Source of the DNA: a bacterium
GTDB taxonomy: Bacteria > Armatimonadota > Chthonomonadetes > Chthonomonadales > JAMCWF01
DNA: 52,230 bases
Direction of reading: 5' to 3'
Assembly: GCA_021842405.1 (NCBI GenBank)
Contig: JAKBZR010000011.1
Coordinates: forward strand, 1-52,230
Within the stretch, counting starts at the first letter, position 1. Each line of letters opens with the position of its first letter. The notes below the pieces were generated by a model. It saw only the letters and a program-made list of their open reading frames with translations. It was not told where the DNA came from and searched no databases. Below, in pieces: positions 29,501 through 47,236 of the stretch. The position numbers and the translations under genes are program-made.

Positions 29501-30217
29501 TTAAGGCGTTGGGGCAGAGCCGACCGAATTTGCGGGAGCGATCTCATTGTTCGTCGGCTGCGGCTTGTTCAGTGTGGCCCCAACCGGTAACAAAATGGTA
29601 TGGTTTTTATGCTTTAACGTAATGCCATCCATACCGATCTGAATGACCTGATAACCGCCCTTCAGCCAATCTCCGTTCTGAGCATTCTGCGATACCGCGT
29701 TGACCTGCAGGCTGGCAACGGAGGGGTTGCCAAGCATCGTGCCCACCAGCGTGATAACGGGTGACGGGGGAGCGACCGGAACGATTCCGATATTTGACCC
29801 TCCCGCTCCATTCACGCCCGGAAGCAACGGCGACATAACCGGTCCGGTTGGATATTTCGGCGATGGAGGCGCGGAATGGGTTGGCGCTGGAGCGCTCGAT
29901 TTTGATCCTGCCAGTTGAATGAAGGGATCATGCAGCTTCATCCGCCCGCTCTTCATCCCATTGTTATATAAGGAACCGGATACCGGCAGTTCGCTGGACG
30001 CCTGCGCCGGGGTTACCGTTACCAGCGATGCAGCGGTTGCAGCCGAATTGGTAGGAGCAGTCGGTGCAGCCGCTGGTTTAGCGGTGGTTTTAGCCGGCTT
30101 TGCCAAAACCGAGCCAAACAGCGTATGCCCAATAAAAAGTAACGCAACCAAAATCAGCACGGTGAGAACACCGACTTTACGCCGATCTTCTGGACTTAAA
30201 TGTGATATAGCTCCCAT
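29501..30217 (-). CDS. PilP/GspC-like pilus assembly protein
   Basis: The 238-residue protein has a short cytoplasmic start (MGAISHLSPEDRRKV), one transmembrane anchor (VGVLTVLILVALLFIGHTLF, about residues 16-35), a long Ala/Pro/Thr-rich periplasmic linker and a C-terminal beta domain. The beta domain (ITLVGTMLGNPSVASLQVN and GDWLKGGYQVIQIGMDGITLKHKNHTILLPVG) is like the HR domain of PilP and GspC, which links the inner-membrane platform to the secretin. ATG 30217 follows GGAGGAG; an in-frame ATG at 30259 lies upstream of that site and would overlap pilQ by being nearly abutted. It is the last gene of the operon and is followed by a strong terminator. Sequence resemblance is weak; context is the main support. 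Confidence 0.74.
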   Translation of the reverse strand: MGAISHLSPEDRRKVGVLTVLILVALLFIGHTLFGSVLAKPAKTTAKPAAAPTAPTNSAATAASLVTVTPAQASSELPVSGSLYNNGMKSGRMKLHDPFIQLAGSKSSAPAPTHSAPPSPKYPTGPVMSPLLPGVNGAGGSNIGIVPVAPPSPVITLVGTMLGNPSVASLQVNAVSQNAQNGDWLKGGYQVIQIGMDGITLKHKNHTILLPVGATLNKPQPTNNEIAPANSVGSAPTP

Positions 30218-30262
30218 AGTTCGCTCTCCTCCAGTTCGATCCCCGACTCGTCTTGGCACCTG

Positions 30263-32047
30263 TCATTGCTTCATCAAATGAGGAGTCAGGAAAACGACTA
30301 CTTCCGAATGCCGATGATCTTTTGAAATGGATTTGAATAAACTACCGATGATGGGTAAATCTCCCAATATCGGTATCTTGGACATCGTGCGGATATCCTG
30401 ATCCTGAATTAAGCCGCCGATCACAATGGTCTGGCCGTTCTTAACTCGCACGGTGGTCTCGGCTTCTCGGCTCGCCGTTTGGGGAAGACCATCCGTAAAC
30501 CCAGTGATGGTGCTGACCACCGGGTGGACGTGCAGGGTAATGTAGCCGTCGGTGTTGACCCGGGGCCGAACCAGCAAAACGATCCCGACTGGCACCTCAT
30601 AAACGGTGAACTGATTGCCGGTGGTCGGACTCGAAGTGGCGAGCGTATTGAAGCGCAGCGTATCGCCGATGAAGATGGAGGCGCCCTGATTATTCAACAC
30701 CGCAATGCGCGGGTCAGCCAGCAGCTTGGCCTTGTTATGCTCAATCATCGCGTTAATCGTGGCGGTGGCGTCAAAGGGTGTGCGTCCGAATGAGCCAAAT
30801 CCGAGGCTGCGCAGCACGGTATTGGCTGGAATTGAGCTATAATCGCTGCCGCCGTGCTCTTGCAGCGTTTGGGAGCCCCACGTCCAACTCACCCCCATGT
30901 TGCTGATCTCCTCCGGTGATGTATCAATCACGCGAGCGTCTATCATCACTTGTTGAGGAGGAACATCAACCTGTTTCAGCAGCTTGAGCGCAGCGTTGAC
31001 ATCTTCCGGAGTCCCTTCCAGGATGAGCGAAAGCGAGTTGACACCGGGCTTGTTGTTGCTGTTACTATTGGATGAGCTGCTGTGTGCGCCGCCGGAACTT
31101 CCACCGCCGCCCATGCCTCCACCGAAGCCTCCTCCACTCGAACCACCCGTCACACCGCCGCCCAAGCTTTGGCCGCTGAGCGGTTGAAAATGGGGAGCCG
31201 GCGGGGCATAGCTTTGAGGGCCGGGAATAACCAGCAGGTTTGAAAATGCCTGCTTGAGCATACTGGTCAACTCATCGGCGCTGGAATATCGAACCTCATA
31301 AACCCGGTATTCAATCTGCGTAGCTCCCTCTTGATCGAGCACCTGAAACTGATTATAAGCGTTCATTACATCCGAGCGATCGCCAGAGATCAGCAGGGCG
31401 TCGCCGACCTGATTGACGCTGAGGTTGGGCGATAGTTTGGCCAACGCGGTCTGGAGCTGGGCGGTTGGAACATGCTTGGGCTTCAGCTCCATGCTAATGG
31501 GGGCTGCGTCAGCCGCCATCCGATCTTGAGTGGAGATGAAATCCACCGCCTGGCTGACATCAGAAGGTGTGCCGATGAGGGTAATCGAGGAGCCATCGTT
31601 TTTTGTGGTGATCAAGGGAAAGTCCGCGTTGACCAACTGTGAGGCAGCGTTGGGCTTCAGATGATCCAGTGTTACCGAACGAGAGACGCCCATTTTAGCG
31701 ATCATTGCCTTCATCTCGCTTGGTGGAGCGATTAGAAAGGTATGGTCTACCCTGCGACATTCGAGTCCGGCCAGATTTGCCACCAATTGAAACGCCTGCT
31801 CCAATGACTTGTTGCTTAACCGAACACTGACCTTTTGGTTGGGATCCACGCTCATCGCAACGTTGACATGCTCTTGAGCGGCGAGCGCTCGAAGGACATC
31901 TCCAACCGGAGCGTTAACATAATCCAAACTGATCAAGCTGGCTTGTATCGCCGGTGTCGCTGGTTGATTATCCGCGTATGCCGGCCAAAGAGTTACACTA
32001 AGGCAGAAGTAGGCACAAATTAAAATCGTAAGTTGCTTCATCTTCAT
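30263..32047 (-). CDS. pilQ: Type IV pilus secretin PilQ
   Basis: The 594-residue protein has a signal peptide (residues 1-25), an STN-type N0 domain (APVGDVLRALAAQEHVNVAMSVD and SNKSLEQAFQLVANLAGL) and two N1-like domains. A Gly/Ser-rich low-complexity segment at about residues 295-335 interrupts the second of these. The C-terminal secretin domain has VPVGIVLLVRPRVNTDGYITLHVHPVVS and VRVKNGQTIVIGGLIQDQ followed by KIPILGDLPIIGSLF. Secretins form the outer-membrane gate of type IV pili and type II secretion, so the cell must have an outer membrane. It lies between pilO and the pilP-like gene. The gene spacing (10 and 45 bases) supports one operon. Confidence 0.95.
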   Translation of the reverse strand: MKMKQLTILICAYFCLSVTLWPAYADNQPATPAIQASLISLDYVNAPVGDVLRALAAQEHVNVAMSVDPNQKVSVRLSNKSLEQAFQLVANLAGLECRRVDHTFLIAPPSEMKAMIAKMGVSRSVTLDHLKPNAASQLVNADFPLITTKNDGSSITLIGTPSDVSQAVDFISTQDRMAADAAPISMELKPKHVPTAQLQTALAKLSPNLSVNQVGDALLISGDRSDVMNAYNQFQVLDQEGATQIEYRVYEVRYSSADELTSMLKQAFSNLLVIPGPQSYAPPAPHFQPLSGQSLGGGVTGGSSGGGFGGGMGGGGSSGGAHSSSSNSNSNNKPGVNSLSLILEGTPEDVNAALKLLKQVDVPPQQVMIDARVIDTSPEEISNMGVSWTWGSQTLQEHGGSDYSSIPANTVLRSLGFGSFGRTPFDATATINAMIEHNKAKLLADPRIAVLNNQGASIFIGDTLRFNTLATSSPTTGNQFTVYEVPVGIVLLVRPRVNTDGYITLHVHPVVSTITGFTDGLPQTASREAETTVRVKNGQTIVIGGLIQDQDIRTMSKIPILGDLPIIGSLFKSISKDHRHSEVVVFLTPHLMKQ

Positions 32048-32057
32048 CTATCCTCGG

Positions 32058-32651
32058 TTAGCTGGTAGTATTGCCCGACCCGGCGGCAACGGTGTCACTC
32101 TCCACGTACCGGGTGATGGTCAATGTCGTTTGTAAGTCGGGATGATTTCCCTGATTCGGTGAAATATGACAATCGCTGATGGTGATCATCCGCGGATAGT
32201 TTTGCAATCCGCTCAATAACAAAAGCAGAGCGTGAAAATCACCGTGCACAACGAGCGTGCTTTGGATCGGCAATACGTTATCGGGCAGCGCGTTTTGATC
32301 CTTCGGTTGTTGCGGCGCTCCCCCTTTTGATGCGGGCGGAAGAATCACGATGGACCGTATTGACACGAGCCGATTGTTTGTTTCCTTCAACAATGCGTTA
32401 AGGTCACGCAGAAAATTGGTCTGTTCCTGTGGGCCGTTTGATACGCAAGGGGTCTGCTTGGGTGGCTTTACCTGGGCGGCTTGCTGAAGCATCTGGTTCA
32501 CAGCCGCCTCTCGGAGCCGTGTTTGCTTCAGGGCGATTTTGTCGCTTCGCAGCGTGCGAAACTTAGGAATCAGCAAGCCTCCGGCCGCCCCCCAAATGAC
32601 AATCGGCATGAGCAATAGAATTAAATTGGCGCCTTTGGCCCCGTTTTTCAT
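32058..32651 (-). CDS. Type IV pilus assembly protein PilO-like
   Basis: The 197-residue protein has one N-terminal transmembrane segment (LILLLMPIVIWGAAGGLLI), a helical coiled-coil part (FRTLRSDKIALKQTRLREAAVNQMLQQ), and a ferredoxin-like periplasmic domain. In that domain VVHGDFHALLLLLSGLQNYPRMITISDCHI is a typical PilO/GspM pattern. PilO dimerises with PilN in the periplasm and aligns the pilus motor with the secretin. Its ATG overlaps the stop of the fused pilM-pilN gene by four bases. Size and position fit PilO well, although the sequence is divergent as usual in this family. Confidence 0.84.
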   Translation of the reverse strand: MKNGAKGANLILLLMPIVIWGAAGGLLIPKFRTLRSDKIALKQTRLREAAVNQMLQQAAQVKPPKQTPCVSNGPQEQTNFLRDLNALLKETNNRLVSIRSIVILPPASKGGAPQQPKDQNALPDNVLPIQSTLVVHGDFHALLLLLSGLQNYPRMITISDCHISPNQGNHPDLQTTLTITRYVESDTVAAGSGNTTS

Positions 32652-34291
32652 TGTTGTCCTCCGGTGCCGGTAGCGGCGGCGGTTTGAACTCCGGTTGTCA
32701 TGTCGAAATGGAGAGCGCGGGAGCCCGTGCTGCTGTCGCGCTGTAAATCGTTTAACTGGATCGGCTTCAGCAATGGCGCCTGCCCGATGGTATCCATCAG
32801 ATCAGCCGCATCGCGGGCCGATAGCGTTCGCCCGGCAAGGGTGATCAGCCCGGTATGGTCAATCATCATATCGGTGAATGCATTTTTCGATGAGGTGGCC
32901 GCTGATAAATACTCCACCAGTTGAAGGATCGGCAACCCCTGCTGTTGGATGGCGGAAACCAACTGCTGCTGCTGCTGTATCTGCTGAGCGTATTGAGCGT
33001 AGCTCCGTGTTTCGGCATTGAGGTGATCCGTCTCCTTTTTCAAGGAGGCGCTGACCCCTGAAAGTTGCATCGCGAGCAGCACGTAGCCAACCACCAGAAC
33101 GACAACACCGGTTGCGCTAGCGATCGAACTCAGGGCCAGGCGAGCAATCTGGTGGTGCTGCGCCCCCAAAGTTTCAGGCGACACCAAATTCAGCTTGGGC
33201 GCGTTGGAATACGGGGCGCCGACATTGCGGAGCGCCAGCCCAATCGCTACACTGAATGGAGTGATATCACTCACATCAGTGACATCCTCCGCCATCGCAA
33301 TGTGGGCGCTGGGGTCAACGAGTATCGCTTCGCTCCTGAAATACTGCTTAGCCAGATCCAATAGCTCGGAAGCGTTTTCCCCACAATAGAGCATCTGAGT
33401 CGGAATGAGCGCATCAGGAGCCAAATACTCGCGGCGGTAGTAATCGAGAACCCGCTGAACTTCCGTCATTATCTGGCTGACCGCATTCGGATCAAAGGAG
33501 TAGTTGGTTGGAGCGGTCGGCTCTTCAACCACTACCTTTTCTTCCATCGGGGCATTCAGACCCAGCGGGTCCAATTCCGGCGTTTCATCGAATGAGGCGG
33601 TTAGGTCCCGCGTGGGTCCGGAATTACTATTTTGGCGGGTCAACTCTTCGGAGCCGCCGGATAGTCGGCGAAAAAACCGTAAATTACCATGCTCGGTAAT
33701 TAAAACGTCCGTATTATAATCGCCGATGATAATGGTGGAGAGCACGTCCGCTTCATTGGTGCTGGGGGCAAGCAGCCGAAATTGGGCAAGGCTGTTCGGC
33801 TCGATGGTCTGTATCTTGAGGCTCGATTCGATAACCGCTTCGTTGTAGCTCTCAAGGGTGCGGTCATCTACTCCGAAAAGAAGCACTCGGTCGGTGGATT
33901 GCTCTTCGTCAATCGCGGTGGAAAGCCGGAAATAGTCGAATGCGCCGATACTTCCCGGCAAAATGCGGTAGTGATCCAGCTCACCGAGCAAGACTGACCG
34001 GACCTCCGAATCGGGAACGCGCGGGATTTCCAAAATGCGCGCGACCATACTGGATCCGGTCAACCCGATGCTGATCGCGTTCGCGCGGTGAGTTAACTTG
34101 CCGACCGCTTCCTTAATGAGGTGGCCTATCTCCTCGGGCCGTCTCAGAGCGTCCCCGTCAAAACTGTCGTTGGGAATGGGCGCTGAAACCAAGGACAGGA
34201 CTCGCGCAGCGGCGGAGCCCCCATCAACCAATGCAGCCCGTATCTCATTGTGAGATATTTCGATACCCAGTTGAACCCGACGTTTCACCAC
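32648..34291 (-). CDS. PilM-PilN fusion protein of type IV pilus assembly
   Basis: The 547-residue protein joins two normally separate proteins. Residues 1 to about 360 form an actin-like PilM ATPase domain (LGIEISHNEIRAALVDGG at the start; LEIPRVPDSEVRSVLLGELDHY; TIIIGDYNTDVLITEHGNLRFFRRLSGG; a late AIGLALRNVG). A PilN-type segment follows: PKLNLVSPE, one transmembrane helix (SSIASATGVVVLVVGYVLLAMQL), a Gln-rich coiled coil and a ferredoxin-like domain (GLITLAGRTLSARDAADLMDTI). PilM normally binds the cytoplasmic tail of PilN, so the fusion makes that link permanent. GTG 34291 follows AGGAG by six bases; a second GTG is next to it. This is the first gene of the operon. Confidence 0.86.
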   Translation of the reverse strand: MVKRRVQLGIEISHNEIRAALVDGGSAAARVLSLVSAPIPNDSFDGDALRRPEEIGHLIKEAVGKLTHRANAISIGLTGSSMVARILEIPRVPDSEVRSVLLGELDHYRILPGSIGAFDYFRLSTAIDEEQSTDRVLLFGVDDRTLESYNEAVIESSLKIQTIEPNSLAQFRLLAPSTNEADVLSTIIIGDYNTDVLITEHGNLRFFRRLSGGSEELTRQNSNSGPTRDLTASFDETPELDPLGLNAPMEEKVVVEEPTAPTNYSFDPNAVSQIMTEVQRVLDYYRREYLAPDALIPTQMLYCGENASELLDLAKQYFRSEAILVDPSAHIAMAEDVTDVSDITPFSVAIGLALRNVGAPYSNAPKLNLVSPETLGAQHHQIARLALSSIASATGVVVLVVGYVLLAMQLSGVSASLKKETDHLNAETRSYAQYAQQIQQQQQLVSAIQQQGLPILQLVEYLSAATSSKNAFTDMMIDHTGLITLAGRTLSARDAADLMDTIGQAPLLKPIQLNDLQRDSSTGSRALHFDMTTGVQTAAATGTGGQQ

Positions 34292-34764
34292 CTGGCACTC
34301 CTGATCGGGTGGTCTTAAAGATGGACGGATACCGGTCTAGCCCATCCCTCGTCGCCACCCTAATGAATTCGAATTTTCGGCACGATCCCGGTAATGTTAG
34401 GCCCCGTTCGTTTTAACCGAAAGCCCATCCAAAACGAACAGGGAATCATTTGTTCATTGAAATCGCAGTAAACACATAACCAGTATTTCCACCTTTTTAA
34501 CCGATGGAATGCCGGTATTTTTTGTAGGAGTACGGATGCTGATTTGAAAAGACGATACGCAATATTTGCTATCTGTTCGATTGGTTAGTACTTTTGTCCT
34601 ATTTAATCAAGACTTGTCGGTGTGTATCATGTGAAATTGACACGGGGTATAATGCAAATTGTGTTTGTTATCATATTGCGTGCGAGCGAACAACCCAATA
34701 CAAGAGCTTGAGCGGTTTAAAGTGGGTTACGATACGAAACGTTTATTGTCGAGGCGGAATTAAG
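34292..34764. other. Divergent intergenic region between pil and nuo operons
   Basis: These 473 bases separate the minus-strand pil operon from the plus-strand nuo operon and hold no convincing gene. They contain a 9-bp inverted repeat (GTTCGTTTT at 34406-34414 with AAAACGAAC at 34431-34439) with CCC/GGG extensions, which could be an operator or a weak hairpin. On the plus strand TTGACA (34637-34642) and TATAAT (34648-34653) are both perfect but only five bases apart, so they cannot act as one promoter. TATAAT is the likelier -10 for nuoA. Confidence 0.5.
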
Positions 34765-35118
34765 ATGGCGGGTCTCCTTACGATATTTGTTTTCACACTG
34801 GTTGGAGCGGCTTTTGTGGCGGTAAATCTCTTGATTGCCCGTTTTTTGAGGCCATCAGTCCCAACAACCGAAAAAGAGACGACCTATGAATGCGGCCCAC
34901 TGCCGTTCGGTGATGCATGGCGTCAGTTTAACATGCACTACTATTTAATCGGCCTTCTATTCGTTATTTTTGATGTGGAGGCCGTGTTCCTCTATCCATG
35001 GGCGCTTGCTTTCAAGCAAACCGGCGCGTACGCGGTTGCCGAGATGATTATTTTCATCGGATTGCTGGCGGTCGGTTGGGCATACGCATGGCGGCGAGGC
35101 GCGCTGGAATGGCAGTAG
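34765..35118 (+). CDS. nuoA: NADH-quinone oxidoreductase subunit A
   Basis: The 117-residue membrane protein has three transmembrane helices and the NuoA signatures [42 protein letters not shown] in the middle. NuoA is part of the connection between the peripheral and membrane arms of complex I, near the quinone site. ATG 34765 is about ten bases after GAGG and gives a normal N-terminus. It heads the nuo operon and overlaps nuoB by ten bases. Confidence 0.97.
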
Positions 35119-35672
35119 GGGAGGTTTCCAAGAAGGAATCGGAAAGCTGGAAGGTACCCGTTCCGGGCGGGTCGGTCATTATGGCCCCGTTGGATCGCTT
35201 AACCCGCTGGGCGCGAAAATCATCGCTGTGGTCGCTCACGTTTGGGCTTTCTTGCTGCGCCATTGAGATGATGGCGACCGCCGCTTCTCGCTACGATTTG
35301 GACCGTTTCGGCGTTTTCTTCCGCGCCACTCCACGCCAGGCCGATGTGATGATCGTGGCCGGCTGGGTTTCGGTTAAGATGGCTCCCTACATTAAGCACC
35401 TCTACGAACAGATGCCGGAACCGAAATATGTGATTGCTATGGGCGGATGCGCCTGCGCCGGCGGACCTTACCGCGACTCCATCACAATTGTTAAAGGGGT
35501 GGATCATTTTCTACCGGTTGATGTCTATGTTTACGGCTGCCCTCCACGGCCTGAAAACCTGATTAACGGCATACTGAAGCTGCAAGAGAAGATTTCTTCC
35601 GAAAAGTCCTTGCTGCGCGGCGGTTCTCCGGATCACCGAATCAATCATGAGCCGATTGTGATCGAGGGTTAA
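35109..35672 (+). CDS. nuoB: NADH-quinone oxidoreductase subunit B
   Basis: The 187-residue protein carries the N2 cluster ligands: the adjacent cysteines in [11 protein letters not shown], one in GGCACAGG and one in GCPPRPE. NuoB passes electrons from the Fe-S chain to quinone. ATG 35109 overlaps the nuoA stop; the upstream part of the open frame is inside nuoA. The C-terminal 20 residues are a polar tail. nuoC follows after one base. Confidence 0.97.
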
Positions 35673-35673
35673 G

Positions 35674-36168
35674 GTGAGCGAAGAGGCAAGCGGAGCGCAA
35701 AGCAGTGAGGTGGAGGCGATCCGGCGGCGTTTCGGCGAGCAGATCGTTGAAGCAAATGAAATATGCGGTGAACTTCAACTTCAGGTGAAACCGGAAGCGG
35801 TGCTTGCGGTTGCGAGATATTTAAGAGATAAGGGTGACTATGATCACCCATCCGATTTGCTGGCTTACGATACCGGCAGTGATTTAGTCGTGATATATCG
35901 GTTATGATCGCTGCAACGGAAACGATCAGTCATTATGCGGGTTCACTTGAATCGAGACGAACCGAAGGTAGCCAGCGTCACCTCGATTTGGCCGGGAACG
36001 GATTGGCACGAGCGGGAATGCTACGATCTATTCGGGATTGTATTTGAAGGTCACCCAAATCTAAAGCGCATATTACTACCGGATGATTGGGAGGGGTGGC
36101 CATTTCGCAAAGATTACCATCCCATTTTTTCCGGTGATCCATTGCACGGTCCGCAGGAGACGAATTGA
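35674..36168 (+). CDS. nuoC: NADH-quinone oxidoreductase subunit C, interrupted by an in-frame TGA
   Basis: Two stretches of NuoC lie in the same frame, separated by one stop codon. The first 77 codons (GTG 35674) end with [17 protein letters not shown] and then TGA at 35905-35907. The frame goes on without any indel as [18 protein letters not shown], then [39 protein letters not shown], the conserved core, to a TGA at 36166-36168. The joined length of about 164 residues is normal for NuoC, which couples NuoB and NuoD. TGA is an ordinary stop elsewhere in the window, so a changed code is unlikely. A nonsense mutation, a base-call error, readthrough, or a split NuoC restarted at ATG 35935 are all possible. 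Confidence 0.88.
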
Positions 36169-36214
36169 CATTCCCCGTCACGATCGTGGTGATGTGTTTA
36201 AAGGAGATCAGCGG

Positions 36215-38428
36215 TTGGTTCCATTTTGGGCAGCAGCCCTTATGATCCTGGTTGGAGTAAACGCGACGAGTTCAACTGATATCCCAAATCGTATAAAAAT
36301 GCTGAGCGATCCTCTTCAGCAAGAAGAACGCACCTGTTTTCAAACGGGCACTCCGTACTCCCCGAAAATTGACCTGCGATCCGATGTCGCAATCTGCTAC
36401 GGTATCGGACCCAATCTCCCCAGCCTCATCCAGAGCTGGAAGCGTAAGGGTTATATCGTCGAAGTGATGACCGGAGTGGCCTGGGGCAATTACCAGGACT
36501 ACCTCTACGGTCGCTTTGATGGCAAAAACCATGTAGACGAAGCGCAAACCGATCGCAACGGGAACAAGATCAGCCACGGCGGCGACGTCTACTATATGTG
36601 TCCGGGACCTACATACGGCGATTACCTTTCGGTGGGAGTGAAACGGGCGATTGACGCCGGAGCTGAGGCGATCTTTTTAGAGGAGCCGGAGTTCTGGGTA
36701 CGCGCCGGATACAGCGAGGGATTTAAGCGAGAGTGGCAGTCCTACTACGATGAAGCCTGGCAGCCACCCTATACTTCGGTGGATGCTCAGTACCGCGCCT
36801 CCAAGCTCAAATACTACCTCTATCGGCGCGCGCTGGAGCAGGTGTTCAACTTCGTTCATCAATACAATCGGCAAACCGGACGCCACGTGCGCTGCTATGT
36901 CGCCACGCATAGCTTGATCAACTATGCGCATTGGGGGATCGTAAGCCCCGAATCCAGCTTGATCCGGGTTGGAACCGACGGGTATATCGCCCAGGTTTGG
37001 ACCGGCACCAGCCGTACGCCCAATATGTACGAAGGACGGTTGAAGGAGCGGACTTTCGAGACCGCGTTCCTGGAATATGGTGCGATGCAAAATCTGGTTC
37101 GTGCCTCCGGCCGCCGCGTCTGGTACTTGAACGATCCGGTGGAAGATAATCCCAACCACTCGTGGAAAGATTATCGGACCAACTGGGAATCGACGTTGAC
37201 CGCCTCTCTCCTCCAGCCCGAAGTTTGGCGCTACGAGGTCATGCCGTGGCCGGATCGGGTCTTTAACGGAAACTATCCGGTCAAAGAGCTTTCTGAGCGA
37301 AAACCGGGCGAAGCGGTCAAGAAGGAGCCGATCCCAGCCCCCTACGCCACTGAGCTTCAACTGGTGATCAACGCATTAAACGATATGAAACAGCCGGATT
37401 GGCGGTGGAGCAGTGGAACCCAGAAGATTGGGGTGGTCGTTTCCGACACGATGATGTTTGAGCGGGGCGATCCGGATCCCGGCGATCCGCATTTAAGCTC
37501 GTTTTACGGCCTGGCTCTGCCGCTGGTGAAGCGGGGAATTCCGGTCGAGCCCGTTCAATTAGAGGATGCAACCGAACCGGGCTTTCTGAAAGACTACCGC
37601 GTGCTTTTGATGACCTACGAAGGTATGAAGCCGATGGAGCCGCAGGTTGACGCCGCAATCGCCCAATGGGTGAAAGCCGGCGGGGCATTGATCTTTGTGG
37701 ATGCCGACAAGGACCCCTACAACCAGGTGAGGGAGTGGTGGAACGAAAATGGCCTGCATTTCGCCACCCCAAGGCTTCACCTCTGGCAGGAACTCGGGCT
37801 TACCCATACGGACAAGCCGGGCGCCTACCAGGTGGGGAAGGGCTGGCTCATCTACTCGGCAGAAAGCCCGGCCGCGCTGGCCTACCAGCCGGACGGCGCC
37901 TCGATGATTCGAGGTTTGTTGCGGCAGGCTTGCGATCACATTCACCTCAAGTATGAGGAAACCAGCTATCTGATATTGAGGCGGGGACCCTACATCGTGG
38001 CGGCCGGATTGAGCAGCGGCTTGCAGAACCGGCGGAGGGTGTTGCGGGGCGCGTTTATCAACTTGTTCGATCCTACGTTGAAAATATTGCGGAGTGTGAC
38101 GCTTTCACCCGGCAAGCGCCTTTTTTTGGTTGACCTGAACCGGATTGAGCGTAAGCAGCCGCTGGTGATTGCGTCGGCGGCAAAGGCGATATTGCAGCGT
38201 AAGGGCGGTTCAATCCGGATCTATGTGGAGGGAGCTGCCGGTACAAATGGGATCATTATGATATCCGATGAAAAATCTCCTTCTGCGCTGGAGTGGGATG
38301 GAGGGCGCGTGCCGGCCGATGCCTGGAGTTTCGACAAGTCAACTCATACGCTCCGATTTCAATTTGAAAACGATGCGAAACCCCACATCATTACCCTGAT
38401 CAATGGCGGCAATGGCAGAAACGATTAG
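36215..38428 (+). CDS. Exported glycosidase-like protein inserted in the nuo operon
   Basis: The 737-residue protein starts at TTG 36215, eight bases after AAGGAG (36201-36206), with a short signal peptide (VPFWAAALMILVGVNATSS). The first half (about 50-400) looks like a TIM barrel, with an acidic LEEPEFWV segment at a strand end and YLNDPVEDNPNHSWKDYRTNWE later. The second half has a beta-galactosidase-trimerisation or GATase-like fold (IAQWVKAGGALIFVDADKDPYNQVREWWNENG), then beta-sandwich sequence. I know no named family or substrate. It is not a complex I subunit, yet lies between nuoC and nuoD with a three-base gap to nuoD, so it must be transcribed with them unless there is an internal promoter. 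Gene style resembles the exported proteins at 4436 and 14839. Confidence 0.82.
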   Translation: MVPFWAAALMILVGVNATSSTDIPNRIKMLSDPLQQEERTCFQTGTPYSPKIDLRSDVAICYGIGPNLPSLIQSWKRKGYIVEVMTGVAWGNYQDYLYGRFDGKNHVDEAQTDRNGNKISHGGDVYYMCPGPTYGDYLSVGVKRAIDAGAEAIFLEEPEFWVRAGYSEGFKREWQSYYDEAWQPPYTSVDAQYRASKLKYYLYRRALEQVFNFVHQYNRQTGRHVRCYVATHSLINYAHWGIVSPESSLIRVGTDGYIAQVWTGTSRTPNMYEGRLKERTFETAFLEYGAMQNLVRASGRRVWYLNDPVEDNPNHSWKDYRTNWESTLTASLLQPEVWRYEVMPWPDRVFNGNYPVKELSERKPGEAVKKEPIPAPYATELQLVINALNDMKQPDWRWSSGTQKIGVVVSDTMMFERGDPDPGDPHLSSFYGLALPLVKRGIPVEPVQLEDATEPGFLKDYRVLLMTYEGMKPMEPQVDAAIAQWVKAGGALIFVDADKDPYNQVREWWNENGLHFATPRLHLWQELGLTHTDKPGAYQVGKGWLIYSAESPAALAYQPDGASMIRGLLRQACDHIHLKYEETSYLILRRGPYIVAAGLSSGLQNRRRVLRGAFINLFDPTLKILRSVTLSPGKRLFLVDLNRIERKQPLVIASAAKAILQRKGGSIRIYVEGAAGTNGIIMISDEKSPSALEWDGGRVPADAWSFDKSTHTLRFQFENDAKPHIITLINGGNGRND

Positions 38429-38431
38429 ACG

Positions 38432-39541
38432 ATGATAACCGACACGACATCCCGCAACACGATGACGGTCAATTTCGGCCCGCAGCACCCCAGCACGCAT
38501 GGGGTGCTGCGCTTGATCGTTGATATAGACGGGGAGATCGTAAGAAGCTGCCGTCCTGAAATCGGTTATCTCCATCGCGGGCTTGAGAAAATGTTCGAAT
38601 CCCGCTCCTACCGCCACAACATTCCATTTACAGACCGGCTGGACTACCTTTGCTCGCTGGCCAACAACCTTGCCATCTGCCAAGCGATCGAACGGGTTGG
38701 AAACGTCGAGGTGCCGGAGCGGGCAAAATATCTCCGCGTTCTGATGGTGGAGCTAAATCGGATCGCCAGCCATCTCGTTTTTCTGGGCACCTTTGCAACC
38801 GATTTGGGCGCCACCACCGTGTTTTTATATGCTTTTCGCGAGCGGGAGCTGCTGCTCGACCTGCTGGAGGCGATGACCGGAGCGCGACTGACCTACAACT
38901 GGATTCGGGTAGGCGGCATGCCGGCCGATATACCGGAGGGCTACGGCGAGAGGGTGATTGCCTTTTTGAACCAGATGAGACCGCGGTTGGATGAGAATGA
39001 TCGCCTGCTGACCCACAACCGGATTTTTAGGGCGCGATGTGAAGGAATCGGGGTTTTGAAGCGCGAGGATGCGATTGCTTGGGGAGCGACCGGCCCGGTT
39101 GCACGAGGGTCCGGCGTCAACCTGGATATTCGAAAAGCGGCTCCCTATGAAATCTACGATCGCCTGGATTTCGAGGTGCCCGTTTTTGATGAGGGTGACG
39201 TGATGGCCCGTTATAAGGTGCGTATCGAGGAGATGAGGCAGAGCGCGCGGATCGTTGAGCAGGTGCTGAAAACGATGCCGGAAGGTGATATTCAGACGAA
39301 GCTGCCGAAGATTTTCAAGCCGCCGGCTGGAGAGGCCTATTCGCGCATCGAATCGCCGCGCGGTGAGCTGAGCTTTTACCTTATCAGTGACGGCACCCCA
39401 AATCCGGTGCGCATCCATATTCGAGCACCGTCCTTCATCCACCTAAGCCTTCTGCAGTTTATGGCGAAGGACATCAAGGTTGCCGATATGATCGCGGTGG
39501 CCGGCAGCTTGGATCCGGTGATGGGGGAGGTGGACCGTTGA
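38432..39541 (+). CDS. nuoD: NADH-quinone oxidoreductase subunit D
   Basis: The 369-residue protein is the 49-kDa-type subunit of complex I, related to the large subunit of NiFe hydrogenases. Conserved stretches are VNFGPQHPSTHGVLRL, EIGYLHRGLEKM, the LNRIASHLVFLGTFATDLGATTVF segment and ESPRGELSFYLISDG. It shapes the quinone-binding cavity with NuoB. It starts three bases after the inserted exported-protein gene and ends in an overlap with the TTG start of nuoH. It is somewhat short at the N-terminus, as in many bacteria. Confidence 0.97.
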   Translation: MITDTTSRNTMTVNFGPQHPSTHGVLRLIVDIDGEIVRSCRPEIGYLHRGLEKMFESRSYRHNIPFTDRLDYLCSLANNLAICQAIERVGNVEVPERAKYLRVLMVELNRIASHLVFLGTFATDLGATTVFLYAFRERELLLDLLEAMTGARLTYNWIRVGGMPADIPEGYGERVIAFLNQMRPRLDENDRLLTHNRIFRARCEGIGVLKREDAIAWGATGPVARGSGVNLDIRKAAPYEIYDRLDFEVPVFDEGDVMARYKVRIEEMRQSARIVEQVLKTMPEGDIQTKLPKIFKPPAGEAYSRIESPRGELSFYLISDGTPNPVRIHIRAPSFIHLSLLQFMAKDIKVADMIAVAGSLDPVMGEVDR

Positions 39542-40644
39542 GTGTGGCACACTCCGGCAGCGCTGATGCGCGGCGCAGTGGTCAGTTTGTCGGTGTAATT
39601 TTTGTTTTCATCGTTTTATTGGTGATTGCGGCCGTAATTGGGCATCTCACTTTGCCCGGCCTTGCTCCGGTGTGGCACTTTCTTGGCGCTCATCCCATAT
39701 TGAATGCGCTGGTTAAGGCGGTTGTATACGTCTCATTCATCGCTCTCCTGGTGCTTTTTTTGATCTGGTGGGAGCGGAAATTTGCGGGTTGGCTGCAAGC
39801 CCGTCTTGGGCCGAAACACGTAGGCCCCCAAGGGATGTTACAGACTCTGGCCGATGCGCTGAAGCTCATCACAAAAGAGGATATCACCCCGGCGGTCGCG
39901 GATCGGCCACTCTTTTACCTGGCTCCCTTTGTCGTTTTTGTGCCGACCGTGCTGACCTTTATGGTCCTGCCGCTCGGCCCTCATTGGATCGCGCAGGATC
40001 TCAATGTGGCGCTGTTATACGTCATTGCGATCAGCTCGATGACCGCAACTGGAATCATGGCTGCCGGTTGGGGATCGAACAACAAATATTCGCTTTTGGG
40101 AGGGGTGCGCGCGGTTGCCCAGTTGCTCTCTTATGAAGTCCCGATGGTGATGGCGGTGCTTTCGGTGGTCACTTTCGTGGGCGGACTATCTATGCGGCAC
40201 ATCATTGATTACCAAGCACAGAATGGGTGGCTCATTTTAAAATGGCCGCTCATCCCGGCATTTTTGATATTTCTCATCGCCGCATTGGCGGAGCTAAATC
40301 GGACTCCCTTCGATCTGCCGGAGGCCGAATCGGAGCTGGTCAGCGGCTTTCACACCGAATATTCGGGCATGCGGTTTGCCTTTTTCTTCCTGGCCGAGTT
40401 CGCCAACAACTTCTTCAGCGCCGGCTTTGCGGTGGCGCTTTTCTTTGGCGGCTATCTGGGGCCGATTTTGCCGGGCATCGTTTGGTTCATATTAAAGACA
40501 TTTGTGCTGATCACGCTGATGATGTGGATCCGATGGACGGTGCCGCGCCTGCGCATTGATCAAATGATGGGTCTTTGCTGGAAGCTGCTGGTGCCGTTGA
40601 GTTTAGTCGTCTTCATTCTGGCTGCGGCTTGGGCTTCAAGGTAA
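39538..40644 (+). CDS. nuoH: NADH-quinone oxidoreductase subunit H
   Basis: The 368-residue membrane protein has about eight helices and NuoH signatures: WWERKFAGWLQARLGPKHVGPQGMLQTLADALKLITKED and the later ELNRTPFDLPEAESELVSGFHTEYSGMRFAFFFLAEF. NuoH forms the quinone access channel and links redox chemistry to pumping. The TTG start at 39538 overlaps the nuoD stop and follows GGGGAGG by seven bases; GTG 39544 is an alternative. Confidence 0.97.
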   Translation: MSVAHSGSADARRSGQFVGVIFVFIVLLVIAAVIGHLTLPGLAPVWHFLGAHPILNALVKAVVYVSFIALLVLFLIWWERKFAGWLQARLGPKHVGPQGMLQTLADALKLITKEDITPAVADRPLFYLAPFVVFVPTVLTFMVLPLGPHWIAQDLNVALLYVIAISSMTATGIMAAGWGSNNKYSLLGGVRAVAQLLSYEVPMVMAVLSVVTFVGGLSMRHIIDYQAQNGWLILKWPLIPAFLIFLIAALAELNRTPFDLPEAESELVSGFHTEYSGMRFAFFFLAEFANNFFSAGFAVALFFGGYLGPILPGIVWFILKTFVLITLMMWIRWTVPRLRIDQMMGLCWKLLVPLSLVVFILAAAWASR

Positions 40645-40716
40645 CATGGAAGCAGTAAAACGTTTCGGGCCGACATTCTTGATTGAGGTGAATGGAGCCC
40701 GAGGGATTTAATCGTC

Positions 40717-41274
40717 ATGGATTCACTAAATGGACATAAAAAAGAGGGCTACCTCAGCGATTTCGTTAACGGGTTCCTCAGTATTTTCAAAGGAATGGGC
40801 GTTACGTTCGTAAATCTGGTCGTCCGTCCCAAGATCACCGTTCTCTACCCGTATCAGCGGTTAAACGTGGCTCCACGCTATCGGGGGCTTTTTTGGCTGA
40901 AGTGGAACGAGGAGAAGCAGCGCCTTAACTGCGTCGGCTGTACGCTATGCGCTCAAGCCTGCCCGACCAATGTCATCTCGATGAATAAACTGGGAAAAGG
41001 CAACCATGCCGGCGTGGATGAGTTTGATATGGATTTAGGGCGCTGCATGTTTTGCAATCTCTGCATTGAGGCTTGTCCTTTTGATGCAATCTATATGGGG
41101 CCGACTTACGAGCTCGCCTCTTACGAACGGAATTCGAGCGTGTTTCATATTCAGGTTTTAGCGCAGGGTGGGGCGGAGGCGGTCCGCATCAATAACGAGA
41201 CCATCAAAGCGGCGCTGGCTGCTGAGGCCGAGAAAAAACCGGCGGCCGCCGTTCACACGGCAAAGGAAGGGTGA
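40717..41274 (+). CDS. nuoI: NADH-quinone oxidoreductase subunit I
   Basis: The 185-residue protein has two 4Fe-4S ferredoxin motifs, CVGCTLCAQACP and CMFCNLCIEACP, which bind clusters N6a and N6b. An N-terminal amphipathic segment (FVNGFLSIFKGMGVTFVNLVVRPKITVLYPY) anchors it at the membrane. The C-terminal Ala/Lys-rich tail is extra. The gap from nuoH is 72 bases. Its stop overlaps the GTG of nuoJ. Confidence 0.97.
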   Translation: MDSLNGHKKEGYLSDFVNGFLSIFKGMGVTFVNLVVRPKITVLYPYQRLNVAPRYRGLFWLKWNEEKQRLNCVGCTLCAQACPTNVISMNKLGKGNHAGVDEFDMDLGRCMFCNLCIEACPFDAIYMGPTYELASYERNSSVFHIQVLAQGGAEAVRINNETIKAALAAEAEKKPAAAVHTAKEG

Positions 41275-41894
41275 ATTTGGGTCAATCGCTGCAATCGGTT
41301 GCGCTGATGGGGTTGGGGGCAGTCGTTCTCCTATCGGGGGTGCTGGTGGTTCAATCCCGCAATCTGGTTCATGCCGGCTACTGGTTACTGCCCTGTTTTC
41401 TGGGAGTGGCCGGATTGTACGGCTTGCTGGATGCCTCATTCTTCTTCGCGGTTCAAATCATGCTCTACGCCGGAGCCATCCTGGTGCTCATCCTTTTCGC
41501 CTTGATGTTGACCCGAGATGTGATGAACCCCCATATTCCACAAAATAACCGCTGGACGATTCCGGCCGCCGTGCTCTGTCTGGTGGTGGGCATATTATTA
41601 GTCTACTCGGTGGGTCACTCGGAAAATCCCTCACCAAGCGCGCCTTTCCACTATGATATCACTCGACAAATCGGAGAGGCATTGATCGGGAAGTATGTGC
41701 TTCCATTTGAGGCGGCCACTTTGCTGCTGTTGGCTGCACTCGTCGGCGCAGTGGTGCTGGCTCGCACCGATCGAAATTTACCCGATACCGCACAAACAGC
41801 CGGAATCGCCTCAGACCAAGGGCTGGGGATGCCATCGCCGGTGGTGGAAAAATCGTCGAGCGACCCGAATGAAATACGGCAGGAGCACCCATAA
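41271..41894 (+). CDS. nuoJ: NADH-quinone oxidoreductase subunit J
   Basis: The 207-residue membrane protein has five helices, with the typical segments VVQSRNLVHAGYWLLPCFLGVAGLYGLLDASFFFAVQIMLYAGAILVLILFALML. The pi-bulge helix near residues 50-70 is characteristic of NuoJ. A final polar tail of about 45 residues (TAQTAGIASDQG to EIRQEHP) goes beyond the usual length. It starts with GTG overlapping nuoI and ends overlapping nuoK. Confidence 0.95.
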   Translation: MNLGQSLQSVALMGLGAVVLLSGVLVVQSRNLVHAGYWLLPCFLGVAGLYGLLDASFFFAVQIMLYAGAILVLILFALMLTRDVMNPHIPQNNRWTIPAAVLCLVVGILLVYSVGHSENPSPSAPFHYDITRQIGEALIGKYVLPFEAATLLLLAALVGAVVLARTDRNLPDTAQTAGIASDQGLGMPSPVVEKSSSDPNEIRQEHP

Positions 41895-42202
41895 TGAACG
41901 GCCTTGATGGATACTTGACTATATCGGCGCTGCTTTTTGCGGTGGGACTGTACGGGGTTTTAACGCGCCGCAACGCGATCGCGCTGCTGATGGGCGTTGA
42001 ACTGATGATCAACGCGGCCAATATCAATTTTTTAGCTTTCTGGCGTTGTCTGTACTTCAATTCATCCGAGCCACAGATTTTTGTTTTAATTGGAATTACC
42101 ATCGCGGCGGCCGAAGCGGCAATCGGATTGGCCTTGATCCTAAACGTTTACCGTGATTTTGGAAATATCGAAGTCAGCCACATCAATGAGTTGAATGGCT
42201 GA
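41894..42202 (+). CDS. nuoK: NADH-quinone oxidoreductase subunit K
   Basis: The 102-residue protein has three helices and the NuoK motifs RRNAIALLMGVELMINAANINFLAF (with the conserved membrane glutamate) and FVLIGITIAAAEAAIGLALILNVYRD. It is part of the antiporter-like proton path. Its ATG overlaps the nuoJ stop by one base. A 70-base gap leads to nuoL. Confidence 0.97.
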   Translation: MNGLDGYLTISALLFAVGLYGVLTRRNAIALLMGVELMINAANINFLAFWRCLYFNSSEPQIFVLIGITIAAAEAAIGLALILNVYRDFGNIEVSHINELNG

Positions 42203-42272
42203 TCAGAGCGCTATTGACTTCAAAGTCATTCGGTTATCCTATCTCAGCACTATTAAATCGGACAGAGGTTAA

Positions 42273-44231
42273 ATGACGGGTTTCATTCACTGGCTTGCCT
42301 GGATACCACTGCTACCATTATGCGCAGCCATTATCACCGGAGTAATGGCATTGGCTCGCAAAAGTGAGCGCGCCGCACCGTTCATCACAATAGCCGCAAC
42401 CCTGATTTCATTATTTATCTCGGCGGCGGTATTAGCCCGATTTTTGGGAGGAACAACCCAGAATCACTTAGAGGTTTCGTTTCACTGGCTTCAGGCAGGG
42501 CGGTTTTCTATTAATCTGGGTGTTGATCTAACTCACTTGGCGGCGTTAATGGCCGTTCTGGTCGGGCTGGTCAGCTCGCTGGTTCAGATTTATTCGATCG
42601 GATATATGCATGGAGATGGCGGATATGGACGCTATTTTGCCTACCTTGCTCTTTTCACCGCTTCTATGTTGGGATTGGTGGTCGCCAACAATCTTTTCCA
42701 GCTTTACGTTTGCTGGGAACTGGTAGGAATCTGCTCTTACCTGCTCATTGGATTCTGGTTTCACAAGAAATCGGCTGCCGATGCGGCCAAGAAGGCCTTT
42801 GTGGTGACCCGATTTGGCGATGTCGGATTTATGTTGGGCGTGCTCATCCTTTCCTCATTCACCGGTTCCTTCTCTTATAACCAGGTCGAGCAGACGCTGT
42901 CCAAAGTGGCGATCGGGGCTATACAACCGCCTTTTTTTTCTCCGGCGACCTTTCTGGCGGTCGCAGCCCTGCTGCTTTTCGCCGGGGCGGTGGGGAAAAG
43001 CGCCCAATTTCCGTTACACATCTGGCTGCCGGACGCGATGGAAGGTCCCACCCCGGTTTCCGCACTGATCCATGCGGCTACGATGGTCGCAGCCGGCGTT
43101 TATATGGTTGCCCGATTGTATCCTATCTTTCTGCTGTCATCCTTTGCATTGGGGGTGATCGCGTGGATCGGCGCCATCACCGCGTTTATTGCGGCAACCA
43201 TCGCCATCGTACAGACCGACATCAAGAAGGTGCTTGCCTATTCCACCGTAAGCCAGCTTGGATATATGATGATTGGATTGGGGGTCGGCGGGTACGTGGC
43301 GGGCGTTTTTCACCTGGCCACCCACGCGATGTTTAAGGCGCTGCTCTTTTTGGCGGCCGGCTCGGTAATCCATGCGATGGGCACAAATGACTTGCGGGAA
43401 ATGGGGGGCTTGCACCGAAAGATGCCGATCACTTCACTCACCTGTTTGGCTGGAATTTTGGCGCTGGCCGGATTTCCGGGATTCGCCGGATTCTGGAGCA
43501 AAGATGAAGTGCTGGGAGTCGCGTTAAGCAACGGCCAAACTCTCATCTTTGTGATCGGGGTGCTGAGCGCCGGAATCACCGCCTTTTACAGTTTACGGCT
43601 CTGGTTGATGGCATTCAGCGGCAGACCTCGCAGCGCGTCGGCTGAACACGCCCATGAAGCCCCCGCCGTGATGACGATCCCGCTCATCATTTTAGCGATC
43701 GGGGCACTGTTCGGTGGTCTTATGAACTTCCCGCATCCATTTATCGGGAGCTTGCTCAACCCAGCCGAGCATGAGCAAATCAACTTAGTTGCAATGGGAC
43801 TGTCCACTGCGGTCGGTCTGACCGGGTTGGCGTGGGCTTGGCTTCTTTACGCGAAGCCGGAGATGGCTCAAGATCCGGTGGAGCGGATGCCGGTTTCGCT
43901 TTACCGGACGTTTGCCAACCTCTGGGGCGTGGATGCCTTCTTTACCAATGGCGTTGCGCGGTGGGCGCTGAATATCGGCCGCATGGTGGCCTGGTTTGAC
44001 CGGCATGTGGTTGACGGTGCGGTCAATGGAGCGGCTTGGATGTGTGGGGCAAGCGGGCGGACACTGCGGAGGTTTACCAACGGACAGGCGCAGTTTTATG
44101 CGGCGGTGATGATTGTAGCCATCCTTCTAGCGGTCTGGCTAGTTTTGGGCGCGATGCAGCCGCCTAATCTGACCGCGGCGGCTCCAACGCGATGGGCCGT
44201 TACCACCACGCTTGGGGGGCGCGCGCGATGA
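42273..44231 (+). CDS. nuoL: NADH-quinone oxidoreductase subunit L
   Basis: The 652-residue protein is the distal antiporter-like subunit of complex I. Motifs include YSIGYMHGDGGYGRYFAYLALFTASML, CWELVGICSYLLIGFW, the LHIWLPDAMEGPTPVSALIHAATMVAAGVYMVARL segment and the KKVLAYSTVSQLGYMMIGLGVGGY segment. The C-terminus has the long lateral helix region. It pumps protons through its central helices. The stop overlaps the nuoM start (ATGA). Confidence 0.97.
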   Translation: MTGFIHWLAWIPLLPLCAAIITGVMALARKSERAAPFITIAATLISLFISAAVLARFLGGTTQNHLEVSFHWLQAGRFSINLGVDLTHLAALMAVLVGLVSSLVQIYSIGYMHGDGGYGRYFAYLALFTASMLGLVVANNLFQLYVCWELVGICSYLLIGFWFHKKSAADAAKKAFVVTRFGDVGFMLGVLILSSFTGSFSYNQVEQTLSKVAIGAIQPPFFSPATFLAVAALLLFAGAVGKSAQFPLHIWLPDAMEGPTPVSALIHAATMVAAGVYMVARLYPIFLLSSFALGVIAWIGAITAFIAATIAIVQTDIKKVLAYSTVSQLGYMMIGLGVGGYVAGVFHLATHAMFKALLFLAAGSVIHAMGTNDLREMGGLHRKMPITSLTCLAGILALAGFPGFAGFWSKDEVLGVALSNGQTLIFVIGVLSAGITAFYSLRLWLMAFSGRPRSASAEHAHEAPAVMTIPLIILAIGALFGGLMNFPHPFIGSLLNPAEHEQINLVAMGLSTAVGLTGLAWAWLLYAKPEMAQDPVERMPVSLYRTFANLWGVDAFFTNGVARWALNIGRMVAWFDRHVVDGAVNGAAWMCGASGRTLRRFTNGQAQFYAAVMIVAILLAVWLVLGAMQPPNLTAAAPTRWAVTTTLGGRAR

Positions 44232-45697
44232 GCTTTCTCAACCAGAACATATTGACCTGGATCGTGCTGTCTCCCTTTATTGCCGCACTGCTGTTAATTA
44301 TCACGCCGCCCAATCGAGGAGCACTCATCCGATGGATCGCGCTGCTGGGCGCTGGATTGACGTTGCCGCTTTCCATACTGGTCGCCATTCTTTACAACCG
44401 CCAACAAGGTGGGTTCCAATTTCAACGGGATGTGCCATGGATCAACAGCCTGGGTATCCAATATCACGTTGGTGTGGATGGCATCAGCGTGGTGTTGGTG
44501 CTCCTGACTGCGATCATCATCACGGCCGGAGTTTTCGCGTCGTGGCGGGTTCAAAATCGAACGAAAGAGTTCCTCGCGCTGCTGCTGTTTCTAGTATCGG
44601 GCGTGTTCGGCGTGTTCGTTTCGCTTGACCTGTTCTTTTTCTTCCTATTTTATGAGATCGCGGTGCTTCCGATGTACTTACTGATCGGTATCTGGGGCAC
44701 CGGTCGTAAAGAATACTCTGCGATGAAGCTAACGCTCTATCTTTTGTTTGGCAGCGCCTTCATTCTAGTTGGAATATTGAGCTTGTATTTCGTCTCTCCG
44801 CAACACACTTTCGACCTCCTCACCTTGCAGCGATCAGGGCGGTTCAGCTATGCATTTCAACGCATCATCTTTCTCGCTTTCTATATCGGGTTTGGGATAT
44901 TAGCCGGCATCTGGCCGCTGCATACATGGTCGCCGGATGGGCACGCCTCCGCCCCCACCGCGGTTTCGATGCTGCATGCGGGCGTATTGATGAAGCTGGG
45001 AGCTTACGGAATCCTGCGGGTCGGCGTCGGATTACTGCCGGGCGGAGCTCACACATGGGCGTTTCTAATGGGCGCGATCGCTACGATCAACATCCTTTAT
45101 GGCGCCTTTTCGGCCATGGGACAGACCGACTTCAAATATGTGGTGGCCTACTCCAGCGTTTCCCATATGGGCGTCGTTATGCTGGGAATCGCCTCGCTCA
45201 ATCCGGTCGGTGTCAACGGGGCGGTGATGCAGATGTTTTCCCATGGAATCATGACCGGTCTGTTCTTTGCGGTGGTTGGGCTGGTTTATGAAAAATCGCA
45301 CACTCGCGATATATTAAAGATGGGCGGGTTTGCAAAGCGCATGCCAGGGGTGGCAGTTGCAATGACGATCGGCGGGTTAGCATCATTTGGGCTGCCGGCA
45401 ACCAGCGGATTCATCGCTGAGTTTATGGTTTTTTGGGGGATGTGGCACACATTCCCGGTGCTTGCCGCGCTGTCAGTGATTGGGATTGTGCTGACGGCAG
45501 TTTACGTTTTGAGGATTTTACAGAAAATTTTCCTGGGCCCTTTTACCGAGCAGTACCACGATCTCGCCGATGCTCAAAAAACGGAATGGGTGGCCATCAC
45601 CGCCCTGGCGGCACTATTGATACTGGTTGGTGTGATGCCCTCGCCGCTGGTGAATTTAATTCGGCTGGGCTTGCACGGATTTCATCTGAATATTTGA
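44228..45697 (+). CDS. nuoM: NADH-quinone oxidoreductase subunit M
   Basis: The 489-residue antiporter-like membrane subunit shows IQYHVGVDGISVVLVLLTAIIITAGVFAS, LFFFFLFYEIAVLPMYLLIGIWGTGRKEYSAMKLTLYLLFGSAF and LHTWSPDGHASAPTAVSMLHAGVLMKLGAYGILR, all typical of NuoM. ATG 44228 overlaps the nuoL stop; the upstream part of the open frame lies inside nuoL. nuoN follows after 27 bases. Confidence 0.97.
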   Translation: MSFLNQNILTWIVLSPFIAALLLIITPPNRGALIRWIALLGAGLTLPLSILVAILYNRQQGGFQFQRDVPWINSLGIQYHVGVDGISVVLVLLTAIIITAGVFASWRVQNRTKEFLALLLFLVSGVFGVFVSLDLFFFFLFYEIAVLPMYLLIGIWGTGRKEYSAMKLTLYLLFGSAFILVGILSLYFVSPQHTFDLLTLQRSGRFSYAFQRIIFLAFYIGFGILAGIWPLHTWSPDGHASAPTAVSMLHAGVLMKLGAYGILRVGVGLLPGGAHTWAFLMGAIATINILYGAFSAMGQTDFKYVVAYSSVSHMGVVMLGIASLNPVGVNGAVMQMFSHGIMTGLFFAVVGLVYEKSHTRDILKMGGFAKRMPGVAVAMTIGGLASFGLPATSGFIAEFMVFWGMWHTFPVLAALSVIGIVLTAVYVLRILQKIFLGPFTEQYHDLADAQKTEWVAITALAALLILVGVMPSPLVNLIRLGLHGFHLNI

Positions 45698-45724
45698 GAA
45701 AATGAATGGTGGAGAAAATCGCAG

Positions 45725-47236
45725 ATGAGGCATGAGTGGGCGATCTTGTTGCCCTATATAGTGCTGACCGGCTGGTCGGTCATCGTCATCGCAGTCGGAT
45801 TGATGGGTGAGCGGATTCGGTCCGATCAATTGGGCTATTTAGCGGCATTCGGCCTGCTGGTTGGCGCAGCGACTCAAATCATCGCACCGCATCGGATTTT
45901 ATGGAACGGACTGCTGTTGGGCGATAGTTATTCCACTATCTTCAACACTATTTTTATGATCGTTGGAGCGGTGGTTTGTTGGGCGTCCGCCTCCTGGAAG
46001 GGCAGCGCGCCCTATGAGCCGGAGTTTTATGGTCTGATTATGCTGGCCACCGTTGGCTTGATGCTGATGGCCGCGGCCGGCAGCCTTTTGATCCTGTTTA
46101 TCGGCATTGAGCTTTCCACCATCAGCCTTTTTGCGCTGGTCTCCATCACAAAGCGGGATCGCAAGTCGGCAGAGGCGGGATTGAAGCTGTTTGTGTTGGG
46201 CGCGGTGGCCTCGGCCGTCTTTTTGTACGGTGCTTCGCTGATATACGGGGCGGCTGGAACCACCGAGTACTGGAGGCTGCTGCTCCTTTCTCAATCGCCC
46301 AAGATGGTGCAGACGACGCTCCTTTTCATTGGATTTTGCTTCGTCGTCGGGGCGCTGTCGTTCAAGCTGGCGGCCGCTCCCTTTCACCTTTGGGCGCCGG
46401 ACGTCTACCAGGGCGCACCGACGATCGTAAGCGCCTTCATCTCCACCGTTTCAAAGGCGGGCGCGTTTGCAGCGCTGATCCGGATCATTTTATTGGCATC
46501 GGCTGCAAACTGGCATGGATTATTGATGGTAATCATTGCGCTGGCCGCAATCAGCATGGTCGTGGGCAACCTGGTTGCCCTTGCGCAAACCAGTTTGAAA
46601 AGGTTGTTGGCCTATTCCGGTGTGGCGCAGGTGGGCTACATCTTAACCGCGGTGGCGGTTGGGGGCTCACGGGACAGCATCAGCAGCGCGATCGTCTACC
46701 TTCTCCTCTACTCCTTTACCAATGCGGGCGCATTTCTGGTGTGTGGTGCGATGCAGGAAACCACCGACTCCGAAACGATTGAGAGCCTGCGGGGGCTTCA
46801 TCGGCGATCAGCGCCGCTTGCCTTCGCGATGCTGATCCTACTGCTGTCTCTGGGCGGAATACCGCCGTTAGCCGGTTTTGTGGGTAAGATATTCTTGTTT
46901 GAGGCCGCCTACACGGGCGGACTATGGCGCCTGGTGCTGCTGGGAGCCATTATGAGCGTAGTGGCGCTCTATTACTATTTATCAGTTGTCCTACAGATGT
47001 ATATCCGTGATCCCGATGATGATAGAAGGGTGGTTGTTGCACCATCGCTGGGCGGTGCAATCGCGCTTTGTACGGTCATAACAGTGCTCATTGGAGCGTT
47101 CCCGGCGCCATGGATAAAAGCCGGTAACCATGCAGCCTCTTCAGCGCGTAAAACCTTCGAGTTTGAAGTCATGGCATCCCATCGAATCCAATCAAACCGG
47201 GTAGCCGATATTTCTTACAAACTGGATCGTCAATAA
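45725..47236 (+). CDS. nuoN: NADH-quinone oxidoreductase subunit N
   Basis: The 503-residue antiporter-like subunit has about 14 helices and NuoN segments: LLILFIGIELSTISLFALVSITKRDRKSAEAGLKLFVLGAVASAVFLYG, FKLAAAPFHLWAPDVYQGAPTIVSAFISTVSKAGAFA and KRLLAYSGVAQVGYILTAVAVG. It is the last nuo gene. The 63-base gap downstream shows no obvious terminator. Confidence 0.97.
   Translation: MRHEWAILLPYIVLTGWSVIVIAVGLMGERIRSDQLGYLAAFGLLVGAATQIIAPHRILWNGLLLGDSYSTIFNTIFMIVGAVVCWASASWKGSAPYEPEFYGLIMLATVGLMLMAAAGSLLILFIGIELSTISLFALVSITKRDRKSAEAGLKLFVLGAVASAVFLYGASLIYGAAGTTEYWRLLLLSQSPKMVQTTLLFIGFCFVVGALSFKLAAAPFHLWAPDVYQGAPTIVSAFISTVSKAGAFAALIRIILLASAANWHGLLMVIIALAAISMVVGNLVALAQTSLKRLLAYSGVAQVGYILTAVAVGGSRDSISSAIVYLLLYSFTNAGAFLVCGAMQETTDSETIESLRGLHRRSAPLAFAMLILLLSLGGIPPLAGFVGKIFLFEAAYTGGLWRLVLLGAIMSVVALYYYLSVVLQMYIRDPDDDRRVVVAPSLGGAIALCTVITVLIGAFPAPWIKAGNHAASSARKTFEFEVMASHRIQSNRVADISYKLDRQ

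Follow-up and report, generated by a model that had tools for sequence, protein, structure and literature searches.

A gene for an exported-type, glycosidase-like protein, here called X, lies between nuoC and nuoD in the 52,230-nucleotide stretch of bacterial DNA analysed here (the window). Its position raises the question of whether it was passively inserted into a complex I operon, or whether expression of a polysaccharide enzyme is tied to respiration. A literature search found no papers on nuoC/nuoD in Armatimonadota or on glycosidases in nuo operons. Our analysis indicates that X is probably a whole gene inserted at the nuoC-nuoD junction of a second, 11-subunit-type complex I operon, and that it plays no part in complex I. 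The respiratory machinery does not seem to have gained a new component; the gene, which is widely shared and often transferred, appears to have landed here once.

An intact gene between nuoC and nuoD

The complex I cluster of the window spans positions 34765-47236 and is of the 11-subunit type, without nuoE-G (Table 1). Sequence and ORF checks identified X as an intact open frame that ends in TAG, begins 46 bases after nuoC and stops 3 bases before the ATG of nuoD. ORF and Pfam coordinates thus agree with the original prediction on the position, length and spacing of the gene. We also located the ribosome site that had been attributed to X, an AAAGGAG sequence upstream of a TTG codon. An alternative in-frame GTG would provide a better-charged, K/R-containing n-region of the signal peptide (MFKGDQRLVPFWAAALMILVGVNA), yet it lacks a clear ribosome site, and the TTG is kept as the candidate start. 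Signal-like N-terminal stretches, judged by eye, begin both X and its homologs, which is consistent with the export proposed earlier.

Homologs of X are 40-60% identical to it across nearly the full length. An alignment of 32 sequences of the family contains 65 invariant columns, and X keeps all invariant residues. Compared with the homolog at locus L005, its divergence by codon position (0.33/0.21/0.62) is coding-like. Taken together, these data show that X is not a chance open reading frame.

Table 1. Features of the complex I cluster around gene X (window coordinates).
Feature	Position	Strand	Evidence
nuoA	34765..35118	+	PF00507, 9.8e-38
nuoB	35109..35672	+	PF01058, 4.3e-30
nuoC, interrupted by in-frame TGA	35674..36168	+	PF00329, 6.6e-41 when read through; alignment to 12 orthologs
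In-frame TGA in nuoC, codon 78	35905..35907	+	Trp in 5 of 12 orthologs
Alternative in-frame GTG start of X	36194..36196	+	Sequence
AAAGGAG, ribosome-binding-like, 8 bases before the TTG of X	36200..36206	+	Sequence
Gene X, exported-type GH42/GH164-fold glycosidase-like protein, 737 aa	36215..38428	+	Open frame, homologs, AlphaFold, Foldseek
nuoD	38432..39541	+	PF00346, 5.4e-99; without a clear ribosome site
nuoH	39538..40644	+	PF00146, 9e-117
nuoI	40717..41274	+	4Fe-4S ferredoxin domains
nuoJ	41271..41894	+	PF00499 (nuoJ + nuoK = 41271..42202)
nuoK	41894..42202	+	PF00420
nuoL, nuoM, nuoN	42273..47236	+	PF00361 for L and N; nuoM from position and translation

The sequence makes co-transcription of X with the nuo genes likely. 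A promoter scan of positions 34200-39600 returned fewer sites than shuffled sequences did, and no internal promoter stood out. Judging from spacing and strand, X would be transcribed from the nuo promoter, riding on the nuo transcript, and would be translated from its own ribosome site. Since nuoD has no clear ribosome site and starts 3 bases after X ends, its translation is probably coupled to that of X, as it would once have been to that of nuoC. The nuoC-X join was also considered for a stable RNA fold, which was rejected (z-score 0.07). Divergent from the nuo operon, positions 29501-34291 carry type IV pilus assembly-like genes, with secretin-like and PilM/PilO-like translations.

The nuoC gene is not intact as assembled, a point missed by the original prediction. 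Apart from its in-frame TGA, it is well conserved in the alignment to 12 orthologs, and the TGA therefore either arose very recently or is a base error. All other nuo genes that were scanned are complete. The third-position GC content of nuoC is 0.50, compared with 0.57-0.69 in the neighbouring nuo genes. An altered genetic code was ruled out, as 13 of the 37 long ORFs of the window, and nuoC itself, end in TGA. Another nuo set is present in the same genome on contig C139, with matches to nuoA, nuoC and nuoD and with E-, F- and G-like genes recognized from their translations.

The nuoC-nuoD junction in related genomes

Comparison of this junction in relatives had been set beforehand as a test of whether X is found there throughout the phylum. 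Among the matches listed, at least 105 nuoC-nuoD junctions could be measured, from 91 genomes in the phylum; they constitute a large sample rather than a census. The gap between the nuoC and nuoD matches is 2266 bases in the window, compared with a median of 94 bases over these junctions, and an insert of about 2.2 kb was seen at the junction of the window only. The next-largest gaps among the junctions listed are 1188 and 776 bases. In all 12 same-order genomes with an orthologous cluster, nuoC runs straight into nuoD. The two genes are thus normally adjacent, as had been assumed, and among the junctions listed X separates them in one genome only. The single genome of the same genus, which is 64% complete, gave no match to the nuo cluster of the window.

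Two other genomes have extra DNA at this junction, and account for the two next-largest gaps. In G232 (L145, G232:C111:9800-11000) it carries a gene with an ORF6N domain that is unrelated to X, and in G284 (L144, G284:C289:500-2400) it carries short ORFs that appear transposase-like by eye, with no Pfam match. The nuoC-nuoD junction therefore occasionally takes cargo.

Distribution and history of the X family

Homologs of X were detected in 101 of 291 genomes of the phylum at E≤1e-3, many of them paralogs that are more distant and about 1000 residues long. Orthologs, about 55-61% identical to X, occupy unrelated sites. Homologs with about 40-60% identity also occur at scattered sites in other phyla, namely Verrucomicrobiota, Acidobacteriota, Bacteroidota, Planctomycetota and Bacillota. 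Among 108 homolog loci, some of which show a single place more than once with flanks of different length, none has nuoA-D, nuoH, nuoI or nuoJ nearby; one of them has a distant NuoL-like match. Conserved linkage of X to nuo genes, as would be expected of a complex I accessory subunit, was thus found neither at these loci nor at the junctions listed, where X occurs once among at least 105.

In the gene tree of the family, sequences from the phylum of the window are intermixed with those of Verrucomicrobiota and Acidobacteriota and do not follow the species order. This mixing of phyla fits repeated horizontal transfer of the X family. The X of the window does not group with the copies from its own order, a placement that is weakly supported (87/87). 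The same genome also encodes a 1041-residue distant paralog of X with no Pfam match (L146, G000:C55), and long paralogs similar to it are widespread in the order.

Origin of the arrangement

X is single-copy in its genome. A search of this genome for a second copy of the junction DNA found none, and neither direct nor inverted repeats were found at the two joins. The GC content of X by codon position (0.57/0.43/0.67) is like that of its nuo neighbours. Composition thus does not point to a recent arrival, and a relocated native gene would fit equally well. If X did arrive recently, it came from a similar genome; alternatively, it moved within the lineage.

An error of assembly or binning could have joined X to the nuo operon. 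The arrangement is known from a single genome assembled in 174 contigs, and the in-frame TGA of nuoC is unexplained. However, each join lies precisely between two complete genes on one 52-kb contig, the joins are free of repeats, the X DNA has no second copy in the genome, and both its overall GC and its codon-position GC match those of the nuo neighbours. We consider such an error improbable. It is somewhat less improbable, although still unlikely, that nuoC is a new pseudogene and that X was simply gained by a second complex I that is dispensable, a scenario that is compatible with our best explanation. The TGA in nuoC, the lower third-position GC of this gene and the other nuo set of the genome all point in this direction, while the good conservation of the rest of nuoC and the completeness of the other scanned nuo genes argue against it.

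The other scenario to be weighed is that selection for expression together with respiration has retained X in the nuo operon. Such a functional coupling would be consistent with the shared strand, the tight spacing, the ribosome site of X and its stop 3 bases before nuoD, as well as with the intactness of the gene and the retention of every invariant residue. The comparative data count against it, as the arrangement occurs in one genome only among at least 105 junctions listed and none of the 108 homolog loci is near nuoA-D, H, I or J. The in-frame stop in the host nuoC and the second nuo set on C139 also speak against it, and we regard it as very unlikely. Of the two readings proposed originally, the tie between a polysaccharide enzyme and respiration thus found no comparative support, whereas passive insertion is favoured, because the arrangement was seen in one genome only, the homologs occupy unrelated sites elsewhere, away from these nuo genes, and an ORF6N gene is present at another such junction. 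The most probable account is therefore that a conserved gene was inserted passively, in this genome specifically: a complete X would have been inserted at the nuoC-nuoD junction, presumably after horizontal arrival. The locus provides a clean case of an unrelated gene placed between complex I genes with the ends of its neighbours unbroken, and is useful for testing translational coupling and the tolerance of operons. The protein family is of larger value than the oddity of the operon.

Fold and family of the X protein

The AlphaFold model of X, computed with the 32-sequence alignment, has a pLDDT of 90.6 and a pTM of 0.91. Its secondary structure and Foldseek matches indicate a TIM barrel, a GATase-like trimerisation-type domain and a C-terminal β-sandwich. 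The TIM-barrel-like first half and GATase-like second half that had been recognized from the sequence are thus borne out, and are of the GH42/GH164 kind. E-values of the Foldseek matches range between 2.9e-18 and about 1e-11; their TM-scores are close to 0.5 and their identity to X is about 10%. The best E-value was obtained with an archaeal exo-β-D-glucosaminidase (2.9e-18; PMC6566704), those for GH42 and for the GH164 enzyme Bs164 being 8.8e-15 and 4.4e-12. On the basis of the model, X is most likely a glycosidase.

Sequence searches did not assign X to a family. Pfam gave nothing above cut-off (DUF4350, E 0.027) and no GH42 match at E≤10; Glyco_hydro_42M matched one of the 32 family members, weakly (E 0.14). 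No match was found in NCBIfam, and no significant match in a phmmer search of the PDB, Bs164 included. A viral fold library gave no match at E≤0.001.

Glu156, Glu157 and Glu159 are invariant in the 32 sequences and lie just after strand 152-156, the fourth as counted by eye. By their position in the sequence and the model, they would provide the catalytic strand-4 glutamate that is a feature of clan GH-A. After the seventh barrel strand, also assigned by eye, Asp307 and Asp311 are invariant and Glu310 is present in 30 of the 32 sequences. Since a strand-7 glutamate is not strictly conserved, X is assigned here to neither GH42 nor GH164.

The predicted three-part architecture of X, with barrel, trimerisation domain and C-terminal β-sandwich, is that of the GH42 β-galactosidases (PDB 3tts, 5e9a, 1kwg). 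Identity to X is about 9-12%, however, and the X family has the invariant aspartates 307 and 311 after strand 7 in place of an invariant glutamate. Bs164, the GH164 β-mannosidase of Bacteroides salyersiae, consists of a barrel followed by a GATase-like domain and then a β-sandwich, with Glu160 and Glu297 as acidic residues on strands 4 and 7 (PMC7105311). X resembles it in domain order, in the near-equal positions of its acidic residues (Glu156-159 and Asp307-Asp311) and in the mannoside context of its homologs, but differs in sequence (8-10% identity in Foldseek) and in the incomplete conservation of the strand-7 glutamate. A further GH42-type enzyme, compared by description, combines a TIM barrel and a trimerisation domain with Glu156 and Glu281 on strands 4 and 7, and is without the C-terminal domain present in X. 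The archaeal exo-β-D-glucosaminidase is 12% identical to X, and a weak profile match to it covers the second domain (E 0.032, profile positions 398-474 only).

Predicted substrate

In Bacteroidota and Bacillota, the neighbours of X homologs are often enzymes acting on α-mannosides (GH92, GH125, GH76, GH38 and GtaA-type), in a survey in which several Bacteroides loci are near-identical and all query genes were drawn from this one set of loci. These neighbours point indirectly to mannose-containing glycans for the X family. X is probably a hydrolase, acting on a mannoside-type glycan as suggested by the gene context in other phyla. We tentatively propose, as a possibility rather than the expected outcome, that the family is an undescribed glycoside hydrolase family of GH42-like trimers, in which strand-7 aspartates replace the GH-A glutamate, which acts on mannose-rich glycans and has moved from phylum to phylum as an individual gene, with the nuo operon as just one landing site; it may already be registered in CAZy. 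As a widespread, conserved and exported-type family with no Pfam or NCBIfam model, found repeatedly beside α-mannoside-degrading genes, it offers a testable enzyme prediction. GH92, GH125, GH76, GH38 or GtaA-type genes stand beside X homologs at loci L121, L123, L128, L130, L131 and L110.
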